From positions 62,001 through 126,000 of the forward strand of contig JAAHFP010000014.1 of the NCBI GenBank assembly GCA_010672925.1: a stretch of 64,000 nt of DNA. Direction: 5' to 3'. The translations under genes and the position numbers were made by a program. The stretch comes from Symploca sp. SIO1C2. GTDB lineage: Bacteria; Cyanobacteriota; Cyanobacteriia; Cyanobacteriales; Coleofasciculaceae. The notes beneath the pieces are model-generated. The model saw only the letters and a program-made list of their open reading frames with translations. It did not search any database and had not been told where the DNA came from. Shown in pieces: positions 35,729 to 44,030 of the stretch; position 1 is the stretch's first letter, and each line of letters opens with the position of its first letter.

Positions 35729-36013
35729 GTGAGAGTTGAGGAAATCATTTGGCTACATGCAATTATAGAGAAGCTTGCGCTCAAGCACCACGTAGAGCCT
35801 AATGAGGTAGAAGAAGTTCTCCGCAACAAACCCAAATTTAGATTTGTGGAAAAAGGAGAGCGAGAGGGTGAAGACGTATATCTTGCTTTGGGACAAACTA
35901 ATGCTGGACGTTATCTAACAGTACTGTTTATTTATAAGCCCTCCGCTCAAGCTCTGATTTTAAGTGCAAGAGATATGGCAAATAAGGAGAGGAAGCTATA
36001 TGGCAGAAAATAA
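35729..36013 (+). CDS. BrnT-family (DUF497) toxin
   Basis: 94 residues from a GTG. The RelE-like BrnT fold is seen in IEKLALKHHVEPNEVEEVL, VEKGEREGEDVYLALGQTNAGR, LTVLFIYKPSAQALILSARDMANKERKLY (this last given in parts: LFIYKPSAQAL and SARDMANKERKLYG). BrnT members are ribonuclease toxins. The antitoxin start lies inside its last codons (14-base overlap), so the pair is translated together. Toxin-first order is usual for brnTA. Confidence 0.9.
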   Translation: MRVEEIIWLHAIIEKLALKHHVEPNEVEEVLRNKPKFRFVEKGEREGEDVYLALGQTNAGRYLTVLFIYKPSAQALILSARDMANKERKLYGRK

Positions 36014-36263
36014 GTCTAAAAAATTACCTCAGTTCAATTCTAGTCAGGAACTTGTAGAGTTCTTTGACACTCATGATCTGGGTGAATATGCCAGTGAACT
36101 GCCGGAGGTACATTTTGATGTTGACATTAAACGCAACCATTATTTGGTTTCAGTTGATGAAAATTTGATGAACAAACTTTTGACGGTTGCCTCTGAACAA
36201 CAAGTTTCGGTTGAGATGCTGGTAGATTCCTGGCTCAAAGAAAAACTTCTCAGTGCAACATGA
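36000..36263 (+). CDS. CopG-type antitoxin, BrnT partner
   Basis: 87 residues starting at the ATG at 36000, behind GGAGAGGAAG. The residues FDTHDLGEYASELPEVHFDV and the following NHYLVSVDENLMNKL match the CopG_antitoxin family found beside DUF497 toxins. C-terminal ribbon-helix-helix-like EMLVDSWLKEKL. It should bind the toxin and the promoter. Overlaps the toxin by 14 bases. Confidence 0.88.
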   Translation: MAENKSKKLPQFNSSQELVEFFDTHDLGEYASELPEVHFDVDIKRNHYLVSVDENLMNKLLTVASEQQVSVEMLVDSWLKEKLLSAT

Positions 36264-36481: not shown

Positions 36482-37009
36482 ATGGAGGACACAGGAAAAG
36501 AGCAACAGAGAAAGATCACTGTATTACCCGATCAGTCTTCGAGTGGAGCACTTGTAAGGCGCGAGACCCAATCTGATATTGAAGTCTATAAAGAAGTATT
36601 AAGTGATCGCTTTACAGAAGCAACAACAGTAGAGGAATGCGAAAAGCTCCTTGGATTGAGACGAGAAATTCAAGAATTACAAAGAGAAGATAGGCAATTA
36701 GAATATGCAGAAAGAGCAGCACAAATTCAGCTTCAACAAGCTCAGCAGAAAGCTCGTATGCAAAGTGGACAACAAATTGTAGCTATTACAATTTCAATCA
36801 TCACTGGAATTTATCTATTACAAACTATTCCCTTAGCCGGTCTATTATTCTTGATTTTAGGTTTAGCAAAACCATTGGGATACTCTTTAGTAGAAATAGG
36901 TAGTTTTTTAGATAATTTAAAAATTTTTCCCCAAGACTCAAATAAGCTTTTGTCGAATGAAGTAGAACAAATAGATCCATCTGAGGAGTCTATAGATGCA
37001 AGATCCTAA
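36482..37009 (+). CDS. Hypothetical membrane protein with N-terminal coiled coil
   Basis: 175 residues. An N-terminal polar part, a charged helix (about 48-100: EECEKLLGLRREIQELQRED), then a hydrophobic hairpin of two helices (about 98-138: IVAITISIITGIYLL and LAGLLFLILGLAKPLG) and an acidic tail. No catalytic motif. It overlaps the next gene by 14 bases, so the two form one transcript and probably one complex. GAGGTAGGAG before the ATG is a good RBS. No family name known to me. Confidence 0.75.
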   Translation: MEDTGKEQQRKITVLPDQSSSGALVRRETQSDIEVYKEVLSDRFTEATTVEECEKLLGLRREIQELQREDRQLEYAERAAQIQLQQAQQKARMQSGQQIVAITISIITGIYLLQTIPLAGLLFLILGLAKPLGYSLVEIGSFLDNLKIFPQDSNKLLSNEVEQIDPSEESIDARS

Positions 37010-37604
37010 ATTAGATATGATGAGCGTATTTAAGCTGGAAACAAGGCTTAAAACTTTTGTTGCGATTTATCTCTCAATAGTTCTGCTTGTACTAACCTTG
37101 GTTGTGGTCATGATTCCAATGAATAGTGATTTACAGCAGGCATTAGTGATTATTTTAGGCTTGCTGACAGTCGCTACTATTGATGGCTTCAAAAAAGCAC
37201 TGGATAGTACTTTATCATCTAAGATTAAAGAGTTTAAACAAATTATTATTCAAGATGGAGGTTCTTATGTTGATGGAGATGTTGATGGAATTAATAAGCC
37301 TATTACTGTTGAAGGCAATTATGTAAAGGATGGTGCAATTCATTATGATTATGGATATGAAAAACGACAAACCCTTGCTGAGGCTGCTGCTGAGATTCAG
37401 GATTTACTCCAACAACTAGAGAAATCTAATCCGACTGCTAGCGAAGCTGAAAAAGTTGCATATGTTAATGAGGAAATTGAGCCTGACTTAAAGTCACGTC
37501 TAGTCCAAGCCTTAAAAGCTGGTGGTGAAGTGGCTATTGACAGTTCATTAGATAGTCACTATGTCAATCTCGTCAAAGCTATTATTAAAGGCTGGTATCT
37601 TTAG
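36996..37604 (+). CDS. Hypothetical membrane protein with cyanobacterial conflict-system-type C-terminus
   Basis: 202 residues. Two hydrophobic helices (about 20-42 and 47-63), then a repeat-like segment DGGSYVDGDVDGINKPITVE, then RQTLAEAAAEIQDLLQQLEK, SNPTASEAEKVAYVNEEIEP and RLVQALKAGGEVAID ... LVKAIIKGW. I recall this last block as the C-terminus of many cyanobacterial multi-domain proteins in defence-like loci, where it is fused to pentapeptide, trypsin or NTPase parts. Here it is joined only to a membrane anchor. Translationally coupled to 36482-37009. Function not known; a membrane-attack or signal-recruiting role is inference. Confidence 0.72.
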   Translation: MQDPKLDMMSVFKLETRLKTFVAIYLSIVLLVLTLVVVMIPMNSDLQQALVIILGLLTVATIDGFKKALDSTLSSKIKEFKQIIIQDGGSYVDGDVDGINKPITVEGNYVKDGAIHYDYGYEKRQTLAEAAAEIQDLLQQLEKSNPTASEAEKVAYVNEEIEPDLKSRLVQALKAGGEVAIDSSLDSHYVNLVKAIIKGWYL

Positions 37605-37972: not shown

Positions 37973-38428
37973 ATGAAACACATTCGATTTGATTGGGCAA
38001 TCAAGAAGCTGCTGCGAGATAAGGCTAACTATGGGATTTTGGAAGGCTTCATTAGTGAATTGTTGGGACAGACGGTTAAAATCCAGTCTATCCTGGAAAG
38101 CGAAAGTAACCCCTTAATGCAGGAAAATAAATTCAATCGAGTAGATATTTTAGCTAGAAGTACTCAGGGAGAGTTGCTACTAATTGAAGTACAAAATGAT
38201 TCTGGGGAAGAAAGCGCAGTTTACAAGCGATATTTGCAAGATAAACAGTACGAAAAAAGTATTATTTCAACAACGAAAGCTGCCGCAGAATTGGAAGGAA
38301 GGAAGAAAGAAAAACGCGATATCGCTATAGCAATGAAACAGGCGGGGAGCGACTTGGAGTTTATTGCCCAGATCACAGGATTATCCTTAAGGGAAGTAGA
38401 GCTAATTACTAGAACACCGATTCAGTAA
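37973..38428 (+). pseudogene. Rpn/PDDEXK-type transposase-nuclease with internal deletion
   Basis: 151 residues, about half the normal length. The N-terminus is right (IRFDWAIKKLLRDKANYGIL, EGFISELLGQTVKI), with the nuclease core RVDILARSTQGELLLIEVQN (D-x11-E-x-Q) and the start of YKRYL. It then jumps to YEKSIISTTKAAAEL and the C-terminal RDIAIAMKQAGSDLEFIAQI. The central 100-150 residues between the YKRYL helix and the C-terminal segment are missing, with no frameshift, so this looks like an in-frame deletion. Rpn-type proteins are recombination-promoting nucleases. The catalytic residues are still present, so residual activity cannot be ruled out. Confidence 0.75.
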
Positions 38429-38612: not shown

Positions 38613-39050
38613 ATGACAACCAGCGACGAGTTTAAAGCAAAACTTAAGGCAGGAGAAATTGTTGATGCCCTAACGTTGGCACTGAGTGAAGCAGTTGAGT
38701 TGGAAATTACCACCTGGGTGTCCTCCGGTAATTCAGACTCTAAAAGTGCAGCTAATGTAGAACAATCATCGCCGGGTTACCGTATGCGTACCCGCATGAA
38801 TATTGTAGATGGTGACATCAATAACGAAATTGGCACCCATTTTATTGGCAATGGCCCTTATACTGAACTGCGGAAGTTTCACATGGAGCAGGTTCTGGAG
38901 GGACGTCAGATTATCCGACAAAATCTGGAAAGCATACAACAGTTATTTACCGTTATAGCTAGCACTTTATCTCAGTTGCCCCAAGATTCACGCCAAATTA
39001 AGGAGCGAAATTCCCTGCTGTCTCCGTCTCCCGAAGATGAATTAAAGTAA
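38613..39050 (+). CDS. Hypothetical protein, DGD-motif family (short form)
   Basis: 145 residues, soluble. Block FKAKLKAGEIVDALTLALSE, then AVELEITTWVSS, then TRMNIVDGDINNEIGTHFIG and YTELRKFHMEQVLEGRQII. It is clearly paralogous with the N-terminal 130 residues of the next gene (39214-40848): FKQQLKAGHFAKALAIAFSE, AVELKITTWVSS, TRINIVDGDIENEIGEQFIG. First of four genes on this strand up to hemL that share an h-DGD-(I/L) element. I do not recognise the family's function. The C-terminus is polar and unlike its paralogue. Confidence 0.78.
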   Translation: MTTSDEFKAKLKAGEIVDALTLALSEAVELEITTWVSSGNSDSKSAANVEQSSPGYRMRTRMNIVDGDINNEIGTHFIGNGPYTELRKFHMEQVLEGRQIIRQNLESIQQLFTVIASTLSQLPQDSRQIKERNSLLSPSPEDELK

Positions 39051-39213
39051 TAGAGGAGGTACTTGAAACAGCTGGTAAGCACAGGATGAATTTAAGAAAG
39101 TGAATCATCTGTTCCCTGTTCCCTACACTGGAATTTGGCTATCCTCATCTGTATGCTTAATAGCTGATAACTTCTTGCTCTGCAAACCGCCCGAACTCTG
39201 TGGAAATATTATT

Positions 39214-40848
39214 ATGGCGTCGAGCGACGACTTCAAACAACAACTCAAGGCTGGTCATTTTGCTAAGGCTCTTGCCATAGCATTCAGTGAAGCTGTTGAG
39301 TTAAAAATTACTACCTGGGTATCTTCAGACTCGGATGATCTTAGCTCAACTATCGCCAAGCCAGGTCATCGCCTGCATACCCGCATCAATATAGTTGATG
39401 GCGATATTGAAAATGAGATTGGCGAACAGTTTATTGGCAATAATCCCTACAAGGAATTGCGGCAATTGCACTTTGAGCAAGTAGCTGAAGGTAATGAGAT
39501 TATTCAGAGTAATCTCAAAAGTTTGCAAAAGCTGTTTGAAGTTCTGGTAACAAAAAATTACCAAGGCTCCACAACCCCCGTTATCGAACCCCAAGTTTCT
39601 GGCACTGAAAGTCAGTTTTTGCCTCCTGTTGAGTCTATCAGTACAGCTCGACTAATACAACAGCCGACTGAGTCAGTGCCGGAGGAGTCGGTAATGGCTG
39701 CTGAAACGGTAATTGAAGAACTCCCTGATACTCGCTTGGGAATCGAAGTAACTGAGTCAGCACCGGAGGAGTCGGTGATGGCTGCTGACACAGTAATTGA
39801 GGAACTCACTGATACTCGGTTGGGAATCGAAGTAACCGATTCAGTGCTGGAAGAGCCAGTAATAACTGCTGAAAGTTTAATTGAAGCAGAACAAAACCAC
39901 TCAGCAGCAGCCGAGGGTTTCACTCCAACTGCTGAGCAATTTGTAGAGGAGCAAATTTCCGAGCAACAACCAATCTACTCCGAATTAAATTCCTTCCGAG
40001 AGCTACCAATAGCTATCCCAGAAACTTCAGATTCTGCCATGGCTCAGGAAGATGAAGAAGATGAAGAAGATTGGGCAGACTCTGTTTTGGATTTTATGGA
40101 GTCTTTACCAGCAGGCTCCCCTTCGGACGTAGATCCAGAATGGAGAGACTTAACGACAGAAGACTCAGAGTCAGATTTAGTTTCAGCAGACTCAGAATTG
40201 TCACAAAATTGGGGCTCTCCAACTCTGGAAGAACTCAATTCCCCCTCTGCATCACCAACACCAGAAATCCAGATTTCGGAGTTAGAATTGGATGGGGACT
40301 GGGATGATTGGGTAGTTGAAGAATCCAGTACTTTAACAGATGAATCTGTTAGTGAAGAACCATTATTGGAGCTCCAAGAAGAATATGATGATTGGGATGA
40401 TTGGGTAGTTGAAGAGCCCAGTACTTTAACGGATCTGCCAGTGGATGATGGATTATCGTCAGATTTGGATACAGAAGAAAGCTGGAATCTAGAGGAATAT
40501 TCCGAACCCTTTGCCGCAAGCTCAACAGTCAATGGTTCAATCTCTGAGCTAGAAATCAATGAAGACTGGGATGAGTTTGTAGTAGAGGAACAAAATATTG
40601 CTCCGGAAATTCAAGATCTCGATAGTACTTTTGACTCTTCTACTCTGAGGAAAAACCTAACCTCTAAAGACTTGGATTTCTATCCAATAAACAACTCTGG
40701 CTCAAGAAATCCCTTGGAAGGAGATGTAGCTGATGAATATTCGGGATTGTTAGAAGAGTTAGAAGAGTTGGAAGATGAGTTAGATTTGTCACCCAAGCCT
40801 GTTAACAAAAGAAAGCCACCCAATCCCCCTCCGAAGCAGAATAGTTGA
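39214..40848 (+). CDS. Hypothetical protein, DGD-motif family with long acidic repeat tail
   Basis: 544 residues from the ATG at 39214, which aligns with the start of the short paralogue; the frame is open upstream to 39100 but that part has no match. Residues 1-130 are the DGD domain. The rest is acidic and low in complexity, with two repeat sets: PEESVMAAETVIEELPDTRL (two or three copies, residues about 150-230) and DDWVVEESSTLTD / DWDDWVVEEPSTLTD / DWDEFVVEEQ (about 355-470). The last residues turn basic and proline-rich (PVNKRKPPNPPPKQNS). Such a tail suggests an extended scaffold that presents W-containing acidic motifs. No enzyme motif seen. Confidence 0.75.
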   Translation: MASSDDFKQQLKAGHFAKALAIAFSEAVELKITTWVSSDSDDLSSTIAKPGHRLHTRINIVDGDIENEIGEQFIGNNPYKELRQLHFEQVAEGNEIIQSNLKSLQKLFEVLVTKNYQGSTTPVIEPQVSGTESQFLPPVESISTARLIQQPTESVPEESVMAAETVIEELPDTRLGIEVTESAPEESVMAADTVIEELTDTRLGIEVTDSVLEEPVITAESLIEAEQNHSAAAEGFTPTAEQFVEEQISEQQPIYSELNSFRELPIAIPETSDSAMAQEDEEDEEDWADSVLDFMESLPAGSPSDVDPEWRDLTTEDSESDLVSADSELSQNWGSPTLEELNSPSASPTPEIQISELELDGDWDDWVVEESSTLTDESVSEEPLLELQEEYDDWDDWVVEEPSTLTDLPVDDGLSSDLDTEESWNLEEYSEPFAASSTVNGSISELEINEDWDEFVVEEQNIAPEIQDLDSTFDSSTLRKNLTSKDLDFYPINNSGSRNPLEGDVADEYSGLLEELEELEDELDLSPKPVNKRKPPNPPPKQNS

Positions 40849-40929
40849 ATAAAGTTACAAGGTAACCAGGAAACTATCTTTTTTTGACAAAAATACAGTT
40901 TAAATGTAAAATAGCTCAAATGTAGGCTT

Positions 40930-41784
40930 ATGGCTGCGACCAGTAAAGAAAACGTTAATAAACAAGCAGATAGGGATTTACCAGTACCGGTTAACCAAGG
41001 GACTCGTTCTAATTTAGGTAAAACCTTTAATGCTTTTGTGGAGTCCTTGGAGCAAGTCCTGGTTGACATCACAGCATTAGAAGTTAATACCATGGTCGTA
41101 GAGCGGATTACTGGAGACAAGTTCATTCCCTGGGAAGCCTACCGAGATCTTTACCCCATCTCATCTACCTATCTCGAACAACAAGGAATCCACGAATCTC
41201 TGCGCGATCGCTACATTGAGTTACGCAAGAATTTAGAATTGGAGTATATGCTGCTCCTGAGTGATCCTACCTATGAGTTTTACGATCACACAGTGCTCGA
41301 TTCTGCAACTCAACATCACAATCAAATCCTCTCTGATCCAATGGTGGAATTGGAACAAATGCAGAGTCGGTTACCGGATCCTTATAGTATTAATACTAGT
41401 CAAAGAGCTTCTGAGCTTAAGCAAATTCTCAAAAATGGCCGTTTCTTGCGCAGCTTGCGCAAGATGAGTGAACTCAAAGGAACTCTAGATAATCGCAATA
41501 AGGCACTACACAAAAAGCAAGATGAGCAAAGTCATCTTTCCTCAGAAGTGATCCAAAAAGCGGTAAAAACTGATATGATTTACGCTCAAACGGTAATTCA
41601 GTTAGATGGAGATCTGATCAACCGCTACTCTGAGGAAATCTTAGCCCACCCTCATCGAGATGTAATTTTACAAATCCATAGAGATGGGGTTCTGTCTGGG
41701 CAAAAGCAGTGGCGCGAAATGTTAGAATTTGTCATCGATTTGGTACAAGCATCCCTTCAAAACATCCGGAAAGCATTGAAGTGA
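40930..41784 (+). CDS. Hypothetical protein, DGD-motif cluster
   Basis: 284 residues, soluble and mainly helical. An N-terminal LEQVLVDITALEVNTMVVER resembles the EAVELEITTWV block of the two genes upstream. Central part helical and charged (RYIELRKNLELEYMLLL). The C-terminal MIYAQTVIQLDGDLINRYSE carries the DGD element, followed by EMLEFVIDLVQASLQNI. I recognise no domain. 81 bases after the stop of the upstream gene, same strand, so the four genes may be one operon. Confidence 0.75.
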   Translation: MAATSKENVNKQADRDLPVPVNQGTRSNLGKTFNAFVESLEQVLVDITALEVNTMVVERITGDKFIPWEAYRDLYPISSTYLEQQGIHESLRDRYIELRKNLELEYMLLLSDPTYEFYDHTVLDSATQHHNQILSDPMVELEQMQSRLPDPYSINTSQRASELKQILKNGRFLRSLRKMSELKGTLDNRNKALHKKQDEQSHLSSEVIQKAVKTDMIYAQTVIQLDGDLINRYSEEILAHPHRDVILQIHRDGVLSGQKQWREMLEFVIDLVQASLQNIRKALK

Positions 41785-41799
41785 GTTATTGGTTGTTTG

Positions 41800-41892
41800 T
41801 TATTTGTCGTTTGTTATTTGTCTTTTGTACCAATAAATAATAAATAATAACCAATAACCAACAACCAACAACCAATGACCAATGACTAATGA
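41800..41892. repeat. TTTGTTATTTGTC and AACCAAC/CAATGAC repeats across the start of 41882
   Basis: The left half (TTGTTTGTTATTTGTCG) and right half (AATAACCAATAACCAAC, CAACAACCAATGACCAATGA) are roughly complementary, so the RNA could fold back. The last CAATGAC-type unit gives the start codon of the next gene. Confidence 0.75.
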
Positions 41893-42583
41893 CCAAAAAC
41901 TTAATTTAGAGCGCTATATCAAAATTAACCAAGAACAGATTCACTCTCATGTATTGTTTCACAGCATTAGTTTTCACTTAGAGTCGGAACTGCTTACTAA
42001 AATTCAGCAAGCACAACAGATAGGTTGCCCTCTGGAAATTTCCAGTAAGTTCTTAGCAGATTTGCGCTACTCGGTTTTGGTTGATGGGGAAAACTGCCTA
42101 CAAACTGGATTGACTTTTTACACCTACTATTGGCAGGATGGCTCTGAGGAAGCACTGATGCGCAGTGTCATTGCTATTGATGGAGATATTCTGCACCAGA
42201 TTCAGAGTGGGTGTTTACAGGAGCCTCAGTTTTGTCAGCAAATTGCATCTGCTCACTATTGGTTAATTGAGCAACTACTGAGTCAGCTGCGTTTAGGGGC
42301 TGTCGTTCATCTCAATTCTTTTGCTTGGGTGATGTCTTCGGTGACTACAACACCAATTGCTATTACTAATTTAGAGAACCTATTGCAAGGAGAGCCCTGG
42401 ATGTGGTTGATTCCAGTAGTGATGTTATGGCTATCTAAATTAGTTTGGCAAGTTCTGCTGTCTTGGGTTTTCCCCATGATTAGTCGCTGGTTCTTCCGTA
42501 GATTGTTGTCAGGTTTGCTTTCTGCTAACACAATGGAACATCAAATAGCTAGACGTATTTTGAGATGGTTAGGAAAGTATTAG
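41882..42583 (+). CDS. Hypothetical membrane protein, DGD-motif cluster
   Basis: 233 residues. N-terminal soluble part with FHLESELLTKIQQAQQ, TGLTFYTYYWQDGSEEALM and RSVIAIDGDILHQIQSG (the DGD element), then a helix ANYW-like AHYWLIEQLLSQLRLGAV. Residues about 172-203 form one or two membrane helices (PWMWLIPVVMLWLSKLVWQV, LLSWVFPMI), and a basic C-terminus (RRLLSGLL, ARRILRWLGKY). It is the only membrane protein of the four and could anchor the others. The ATG and MTND lie within an AATGACC/AACCAAC repeat, so the N-terminus is repeat-derived. hemL follows after 142 bases. Confidence 0.75.
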   Translation: MTNDQKLNLERYIKINQEQIHSHVLFHSISFHLESELLTKIQQAQQIGCPLEISSKFLADLRYSVLVDGENCLQTGLTFYTYYWQDGSEEALMRSVIAIDGDILHQIQSGCLQEPQFCQQIASAHYWLIEQLLSQLRLGAVVHLNSFAWVMSSVTTTPIAITNLENLLQGEPWMWLIPVVMLWLSKLVWQVLLSWVFPMISRWFFRRLLSGLLSANTMEHQIARRILRWLGKY

Positions 42584-42725: not shown

Positions 42726-44030
42726 TTGGTTACTACCACAAGTTCTTGGAAAACTACCAAATCAGAAGAAATTTTTACCGCTGCCCAGAAGCTCATGCCG
42801 GGGGGTGTTAGTTCCCCAGTTAGGGCATTCAAATCCGTAGGGGGACAGCCTATTGTCTTTGATCAGGTGAAAGGAGCCTACATTTGGGATGTTGATGGCA
42901 ACCAGTACATCGACTATGTTGGTACTTGGGGACCAGCAATTTGTGGTCATGCTCATCCAGAGGTCATTGTCGCTCTCCACGATGCCCTAGGAAAGGGTAC
43001 TAGCTTTGGTGCTCCCTCGGCACTAGAGAATGTATTGGCACAAAAAGTAATTGATGCTGTTCCTAGCATTGAGATGGTGCGATTTGTCAACTCTGGAACC
43101 GAAGCCTGCATGGGAGTACTGCGCCTGATGCGTGCTTTTACCGGTCGGGACAAAATCATCAAATTTGAAGGCTGCTATCATGGTCATGCTGACATGTTCC
43201 TGGTAAAAGCTGGTTCCGGCGTCGCTACTTTAGGTTTACCCGACTCTCCTGGTGTACCCAAATCCACTACCCGCGACACTTTAACTGCTCCCTACAACGA
43301 CATCGAAGCAGTCAAAGCTTTGTTTAAAGATAATCCCGATACTATTGCTGGAGTAATTCTAGAGCCAGTGGTGGGTAATTCTGGCTTTATTCCCCCCGAT
43401 ACTGGTTTCTTGGAAGGTTTGCGGGAAATCACCAAAGAATATGGGGCTCTTCTCATGTTTGATGAGGTGATGACTGGCTTCCGGATTGCCTACGGTGGTG
43501 CACAGGAAAAATTCGGTGTCACTCCAGACCTTACAACTTTAGGTAAAGTTATTGGTGGTGGCTTACCGGTAGGAGCTTACGGCGGACGAGAGGATATCAT
43601 GTCGATGGTGGCTCCTGCTGGACCAATGTATCAGGCAGGAACTCTCTCCGGTAATCCCCTAGCAATGACAGCGGGAATCGAAACTCTGAAGTTACTAGAA
43701 AAACCCGGTACTTACGAGCAACTGGACAAGATTACCAAAAAACTAACAGATGGTTTGTTGCAAGTTGCCAAGGAAACTGGTCAAACTGTTTCTACTGGTC
43801 AAATCAGTGCTATGTTTGGCATGTTCTTCACTGGAGAGACAGTGCACAACTATGAAGATGCGAAAAAGTCTGACTTGACCAAGTTCCAAAGTTTCCATCG
43901 TGGCATGTTAGAGCGTGGAATTTACCTAGCACCTTCTCAATTTGAGGCAGGGTTTACTTCTCTAGCTCACACTGAAGAGGATATTGACCGTACTCTAGCA
44001 GCAGCAAAGGAAGTTATGTCCAGTCTTTAG
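42726..44030 (+). CDS. hemL: Glutamate-1-semialdehyde 2,1-aminomutase
   Basis: Makes 5-aminolaevulinate from glutamate-1-semialdehyde, the entry to haem and chlorophyll. 434 residues, class-III aminotransferase fold. Seen: [18 protein letters not shown], the PLP phosphate loop NSGTEACMG, the flexible gating loop after [26 protein letters not shown] with the PLP-binding Asp, and [18 protein letters not shown] with the Schiff-base Lys. The start is a TTG at 42726, preceded by AAGGAGA at a good distance. The neighbouring MITE-like repeat begins 9 bases after the stop. Confidence 0.97.

Follow-up and report, generated by a model that had tools for sequence, protein, structure and literature searches.

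A window of 64,000 nucleotides from the cyanobacterium Symploca sp. SIO1C2 (assembly GCA_010672925.1, contig JAAHFP010000014.1, positions 62,001 to 126,000 of the forward strand; genome size 8.67 Mb) encodes a cluster of four proteins, referred to here as P1, P2, P3 and P4 (Table 1). A sequence-only reading of the window had described the four genes as lying on one strand, each with a single short element around Asp-Gly-Asp (DGD), at least three with an upstream block resembling EAVELEITTWV and the first two as paralogues, and these features are all confirmed. The elements NIVDGDINNEI, NIVDGDIENEI, IQLDGDLINRY and IAIDGDILHQI are found in the open reading frames (ORFs) of P1, P2, P3 and P4 respectively, and the upstream blocks are EAVELEITTWV in P1, EAVELKITTWV in P2 and TALEVNTMVVE in P3, with a weaker counterpart, LTFYTYYWQ, in P4. 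For P2 the ATG at 39214 has been used as the start; the longest mechanical ORF opens at GTG 39100. The net charges of P1, P2, P3 and P4 are -6, -106, -6 and -3, and the closest named relatives of the window proteins are encoded in Symploca sp. SIO2E6 and SIO2C1.

Table 1. Genes of the P1-P4 cluster and codons of conserved P1 residues, in window coordinates
Feature	Coordinates	Strand	Description
P1	38613..39050	+	ORF, 145 residues; stand-alone domain protein, predicted alpha1-alpha2-beta1-beta2-(DGD turn)-beta3-long alpha3
P2	39214..40848	+	ORF, 544 residues; N-terminal domain of ~120 residues, then acidic Trp-bearing tail of ~420 residues
P3	40930..41784	+	ORF, 284 residues; domain with predicted helical insertion between beta1 and beta2
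P4	41882..42583	+	ORF, 233 residues; diverged domain, membrane-type stretch 176-194, basic C-terminal end
P1 beta1 codons 33-35 (T-T-W) around Thr34	38709..38717	+	Thr34 invariant in 145/145 distinct P1/P2 domains
P1 His90 codon	38880..38882	+	His90 invariant in 145/145 distinct P1/P2 domains; counterparts His250 (P3) and His125 (P4)

The sharing of the DGD motif among P1-P4 is beyond chance. The pattern [VILMF].?DGD[VILM] occurs in five of the 60 window ORFs of at least 100 residues, four of them being P1-P4, and in 10 of 1570 ORFs (at least 60 residues) outside the families in the fetched loci; the fifth window ORF with the motif (36996, VDGDV) shows no sign of membership in the family. Profile comparisons indicate that the domain bearing the element is homologous in all the four proteins. 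A hidden Markov model (HMM) of the P1 type matches the N-terminal part of P2 relatives as well as four homologues of P3 (E-values 1e-5 to 9e-4), the latter in two pieces in the correct order, as expected for the same domain carrying an insert. In profile-profile alignment with hhalign the pairs P1-P3, P3-P4 and P1-P4 are related with P-values of 1.2e-4, 1.8e-5 and 6e-4 and scores of 34.6, 43.5 and 29.4, against 22.0, 17.5 and 17.0 for reversed profiles; none of 60 column shuffles reached the score of any pair, and no control, whether with YbaB or with one of five unrelated families, scored above 17.5. A homologue of P4 in genome G274, which belongs to another order (locus L234, 4567-5496), bridges the families, being matched by all three HMMs (E-values 1.6e-4, 8.4e-7 and 2.7e-14). 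On these alignments P3 is a P1-type domain with a helical insert and P4 a diverged copy.

Structures predicted by AlphaFold2 for P1 and P3 separately show one common topology. The P1 model (mean predicted local distance difference test score, pLDDT, 79.8) comprises helices 3-12 and 16-27, strands 29-35, 57-63 and 69-73 and a long helix 84-121, and that of P3 (mean pLDDT 85.6) a helix, strand 49-55, the helical insert, strands 217-224 and 229-233 and a long final helix. In both models the DGD forms the turn of the beta2-beta3 hairpin. The idea of a common system, which the sequence-only reading had made dependent on related folds around the DGD, agrees with the models in so far as the two proteins modelled share their fold.

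The literal DGD is retained in 63 of 168 P1/P2, 85 of 113 P3 and 47 of 102 P4 ORFs, near-duplicates included, and is poorly conserved; the stable parts are the turn glycine, the strand threonine and the helix histidine. Counted over distinct sequences only, Thr34 and His90 are identical in all P1/P2 domains (Table 1) and their P3 equivalents, Thr54 and His250, in 100 of 100. Of 89 distinct P4 sequences, 87 have His125 and 88 have the turn glycine, and the position of the strand threonine is Thr or Ser in 26 of the 29 rows of alignment A3.

Comparison of the models with known structures places YbaB/EbfC (PF02575) first. For P1, YbaB structures rank 1-4 (Z 5.0-5.2 over 79-83 residues, root mean square deviation 3.8-4.8), counting among them 3f42, which we take to be a YbaB. 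For P3 they are three of the top four (Z 7.8, 6.6 and 6.3 over 90-91 residues, root mean square deviation 5.4-6.7), Z scores below 8 being common according to the tool's own note. The best YbaB rows of Foldseek have E-values of 1.6 and 3.7, which are not significant. YbaB itself, according to PMC9610160, has the topology N-a1/b1/b2/b3/a2-C and forms a homodimer in which the sheets pair. The models of P1 and P3 resemble it in this topology and in a similar core size. Searches with PF02575 at E<=1 in 59 genomes, the Symploca genome included, detect an ordinary YbaB elsewhere in that genome and no match at the window cluster, and hhalign against cyanobacterial YbaB (alignment built from 19 of 30 fetched loci) gives scores at the level of unrelated families. 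A homology to YbaB by profile comparison was rejected, nothing being above background, and P1-P4 are therefore not filed under YbaB. P1-P4 differ from YbaB in lacking sequence or profile similarity to it, and P1-P3 also in their invariant Thr and His. The likeness, seen in structure alignment of predicted models, is at most one of topology. We know of no counterpart in YbaB of the helical insert of P3, the membrane stretch of P4 or the acidic tail of P2.

The families of P1-P4 are unnamed in every library searched, in line with the sequence-only reading, which had recognised no family. In Pfam and NCBIfam nothing near the curated cut-offs is matched by the window proteins; 29 P4 rows and 68 P1/P2 rows gave weak Pfam matches of one member each, the window protein alone being scanned for P3. 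The sole PADLOC match is that of JetC to P1, which covers 75 residues of a model with 1355 positions (E-value 0.0044, 12.8 bits) and is taken as a chance match of coiled coils. PHROGs gave no significant match (P3 only, E-value 0.1). When PDB sequences were searched with profiles at E<=1, P1/P2 and P3 had no match and P4 a single row (E 0.8). Viral contigs and plasmids searched with P3 contain no relatives, and a fold search of viral models with P1 found nothing significant. No description of the cluster was found in the open-access literature, which is weak evidence.

The long acidic tail of P2 with repeated DDWVVEE units, proposed from the sequence alone, is a genuine feature. The window protein has two copies of DDWVVEE and one DEFVVEE, and acidic-aromatic tails are found across its relatives, with lengths of 98-1805 residues among the 68 tails of at least 80 residues. 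The tails have 2.9% Lys+Arg overall and, over 69 tails, a median of 28% Asp+Glu, and the tail is presumed to be disordered on this composition. Tryptophans are concentrated in acidic patches (at least three acidic residues within three positions): 379 of 609 tail Trp, against a mean of 150 and a maximum of 170 in 50 shuffles. The excess is larger than that of Phe (343 vs 272), Leu (1019 vs 764) and Val (430 vs 342); Thr, Ala and Pro are below expectation. The pattern W..[WF][VILM], which the repeat core WDDWV of the window fits, occurs 76 times against 5.5 expected and in 44 of the 69 tails. In the 1931-residue P2 relative of locus L062 (1832-7627) the tail contains near-identical ESLWEETPATPSLELVEETEE and ETPFDNLEETEDFGETDSLFVYPSELSRT blocks, which looks like a recent repeat expansion.

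P4 had been assigned the only membrane helices of the set and a basic end. It is indeed the sole window protein with a membrane-type stretch by hydropathy, and its end is basic; the helices in the plural did not hold, a single stretch being present. Its assignment as the membrane subunit of the window set agrees with the relatives, in which at least one such stretch is found in 96 of 102, followed by a net positive end in 95 of the 96. No membrane-type stretch is found in 113 P3 proteins. One or two are found in 17 of 168 P1/P2 ORFs, 16 of them tailed, with Moorena, Roseofilum and Hormoscilla among the organisms. The loci of these 16 are L040, L088, L089 and L090 (Moorena type), L058, L063, L114, L115, L117, L118, L121 and five others; P4 and P3 lie on different contigs in G042 and G084, two genomes of the Moorena type.

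The four genes co-occur in other genomes, as the sequence-only reading had anticipated. Among 120 genomes of the order to which the window belongs, the P1/P2 domain is found in 65 by a search with one sequence and in 66 by alignment, P3 in 57 by a single-sequence search and P4 in 56 by alignment, the sensitivities of single-sequence and alignment counts being different. One P4 match, in genome G013 (E-value 8.8e-4, stop-interrupted and away from the cluster), was excluded before counting, leaving 55. The P1/P2 domain, P3 and P4 are together in 54 genomes; the domain alone is encoded in 11, the domain with P3 in one, P3 with P4 in one and P3 alone in one, and 52 have none. P3 and P4 are both present in 55 genomes, P3 without P4 in two and P4 without P3 in none. 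The two genomes with P3 and without the P1/P2 domain are both incomplete (G030, 61%; G070, 77%). Fisher tests on these combinations ignore the relatedness of the genomes. In a survey of 194 genomes across the phylum the P1/P2 domain is found in 27 and P3 in 21, all within the 27, of which two (G139 and G274) are outside the order. Named carriers include Symploca, Moorena, Spirulina, Nostoc, Pleurocapsa and Prochloron.

The genes usually remain close together. The P1/P2 domain and P3 are at most 9 kb apart in 50 of 55 genomes and on separate contigs in five; the distance between P3 and P4 is at most 3 kb in 48 of 55. P4 is retained even when relocated, on another contig in six genomes, some of them possibly reflecting assembly breaks, and 1.3 Mb away on the same contig in G088. 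Gene order was examined in 121 loci (41 unnamed or window loci and 80 named ones, of 105 relatives; some contigs are counted twice). In 120 of them the genes detected are an ordered subset of psbP-maf-P1-P2-P3-P4, the exceptional locus having two short domain proteins ahead of P3. Neighbouring P1-P4 genes share a strand in all 261 adjacent pairs, and the median gaps between them are 73, 70 and 10 bases. In five loci psbP-maf is accompanied by one tailed domain protein, and neither P3 nor P4 is seen; the ORF caller misses some copies, and in one of the five (G116, locus L068) a second domain copy is found by alignment search.

Several other genes are encoded near the cluster. The gene hemL, beside which the cluster had been placed, is the ORF at 42726 (TIGR00713, E-value 2.9e-185); the adjacency is true of the window and of loci L079 and L080, the two closest named relatives, and of none of the other loci scanned, and hence is incidental. 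In search of a fifth partner two candidates were considered and rejected as they look lineage-limited. In six loci, L231 and five of the 121, P4 is followed by a DUF1232 gene, for example at 8914-9213 in L231, where P4 is on a contig separate from P1-P3, and at 11874-12182 in L054. A small protein of the DUF4327 type is encoded near the cluster in two distant lineages (L233, 6635-6958; L057, 11641-11859, with PF14217 confirmed in L057). Other recurrent neighbours were set aside as local synteny or as response-regulator and TPR genes. An unnamed protein of ~270 residues adjoins the cluster in 30 loci of the Nostoc type (L057, L124, L138 and others); it is divergent from P1 in three inspected, and an acetate kinase gene is nearby in 22, confirmed in L057. 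Upstream of the cluster in the window are a BrnT-type toxin gene (PF04365) and a CopG-type antitoxin gene (PF12441) at 35729-36263, and directly upstream of P1, in the place that maf occupies in many relatives, a short ORF of the Rpn/PD-(D/E)XK transposase type (37973-38428; PF12784, with TIGR01784 slightly under the cut-off). The ORF of 202 residues at 36996-37604, in which VDGDVDG fits the DGD motif apparently by chance, has a weak match to ThiS (E-value 0.0011, below the cut-off).

The presence of one domain in four chains, of which one has a membrane stretch and another a motif-bearing arm, together with the co-retention after relocation, suggests a membrane-anchored heteromeric platform. 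The sequence-only reading, which had proposed a membrane-anchored complex with a scaffold subunit presenting repeated acidic-aromatic motifs, is thereby supported in part. The small domain of YbaB topology would pair with its own kind in P1-P4; we infer such heteromerisation through the shared domain by analogy with the YbaB homodimer. The hydrophobic stretch and the basic end at the C-terminus of P4 would hold the assembly at the membrane, a cytosolic core would be completed by P1 and P3, and the flexible acidic arm of P2 would display its Trp-in-acidic-patch motifs to a client in the cytosol; the cluster would in this way act as a membrane recruiting or organising scaffold. This mechanism, in which the heteromeric assembly, its orientation, the disorder of the tail and the binding of a client are all inferred, is proposed tentatively, its chances being in our estimate a little short of even. 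That the cluster is a real, co-retained and undescribed gene set is held much more firmly.

A number of observations weigh against the proposed scaffold. P1-P3-P4 without a tailed P2 are found in 30 of the 121 loci, 29 of the Nostoc type and the Limnofasciculus locus L097, in which a gap of 2 kb may hide an undetected P2; the tail, not found in the 29 Nostocales-type loci, is thus not obligatory. In the tree 28 of 29 distinct P1 rows from loci of this arrangement form one group with a support of 100/100; having few columns and many weak forks, the tree has been used for the Nostoc-type group and for the nearest rows only. Of the 66 genomes that have the domain, 11 are without P3 and P4, and these genomes with the P1/P2 domain alone, taken with the Nostoc-type loci, imply that the tail is not obligatory, nor is the anchor. 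Two of the 68 tails have no Trp, and the count of W..[WF][VILM] does not rise with the length of the tail (rho -0.12). The 16 tailed P2 ORFs mentioned above have, at residue 117 or beyond, a hydrophobic stretch of 19 residues, by which P2 could touch the membrane itself in those lineages, and hence P4 need not be the sole anchor everywhere. The AlphaFold2 models, further, were built on alignments of 68 and 32 rows.

Other roles may also be considered for the cluster. The structural likeness described above could mean that P1-P4 are far relatives of YbaB/EbfC that form tweezer-like dimers on DNA or RNA, with P4 as the membrane tether and the tail of P2 modulating the binding. Such a nucleoid module is favoured by the top rank of YbaB structures for P1 and P3 and by the agreement of the models with the topology given in PMC9610160, and we consider it unlikely in view of the insignificant Foldseek values, Z scores in a range that is common, the empty profile comparison, the failure of PF02575 to detect these proteins in a genome with an ordinary YbaB elsewhere and the net negative charge of all four window proteins. 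A part in photosynthesis is suggested by the frequent immediate neighbours, psbP (CyanoP) and maf, with which the cluster might act in the assembly of photosystem II at the thylakoid membrane. In 42 of 66 genomes no more than 2.5 kb separates the first domain gene from maf, and the order is psbP-maf-P1 where both are seen. CyanoP (PsbP) and Maf are other families by Pfam and NCBIfam, their identities being confirmed for one representative each, and psbP and maf lie side by side in 47 of the 59 genomes that have the cluster and in 45 of the 50 that do not; a specific linkage was therefore rejected, and the link to the cluster is positional. Moreover the cluster is apart from psbP-maf in the Nostocaceae G035, G077 and G111, and in Symploca sp. 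SIO1C2 itself psbP and maf are on contigs other than that of the cluster, and psbP is found in 109 of the 120 genomes as against 57 for P3, which makes this role distinctly improbable.

Alternatively, the acidic Trp motifs could position envelope or cytoskeletal proteins, the cluster being an organiser of the cell envelope or of shape and motility. Eukaryotic adaptors bind their partners via acidic Trp motifs, and many of the named carriers listed above are, we presume, filamentous or colonial. All parts are missing in 52 of the 120 genomes of the same order, carriers that we take to be unicellular exist (Prochloron, Aphanothece) and the loci have no linked envelope gene in recurrent position, so that such a role is also improbable. 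The patchy presence of the cluster, with the BrnT/CopG-antitoxin pair and the Rpn-type gene close upstream in the window, might point to a mobile or defence cassette; with no convincing match in PADLOC or PHROGs, no relative of P3 on viral contigs or plasmids, and chromosomal neighbours that recur across families, this is hardly credible.

Membrane-tethered scaffolds with intrinsically disordered acidic arms bearing short linear motifs are a general class, and the scaffold proposed here for P1-P4 would resemble them in having a folded domain, a low-complexity acidic tail of variable length and a repeated aromatic-acidic motif. It differs from them in that no family is common to both and that four paralogous domain proteins are encoded in an operon-like cluster. 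The families are new to the libraries searched, and the principle suggested, in which a scaffold on the membrane recruits through a disordered arm, is of an already known kind. A bolder proposal, which we regard as rather doubtful, is that the cluster represents an unnamed class of bacterial membrane organiser, in which four proteins derived from one small alpha/beta domain would make up a heteromeric platform on a cyanobacterial membrane, with a fast-evolving acidic arm whose Trp-acidic motifs, up to tens in number, would concentrate a specific client there, perhaps in a condensate, its length being tuned by repeat expansion.

These genes are present in roughly half of the genomes sampled from the order (the P1/P2 domain in 66 and P3 in 57 of 120) and are tightly co-retained. 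Their anatomy is clear, with four roles for a single domain, an anchor, a recruiting arm and two fixed residues, and makes the question of their role directly testable. If the scaffold reading is true, nature would have provided, in the tails of P2, a series of client-binding arms that range in length from about 100 to 1800 residues.

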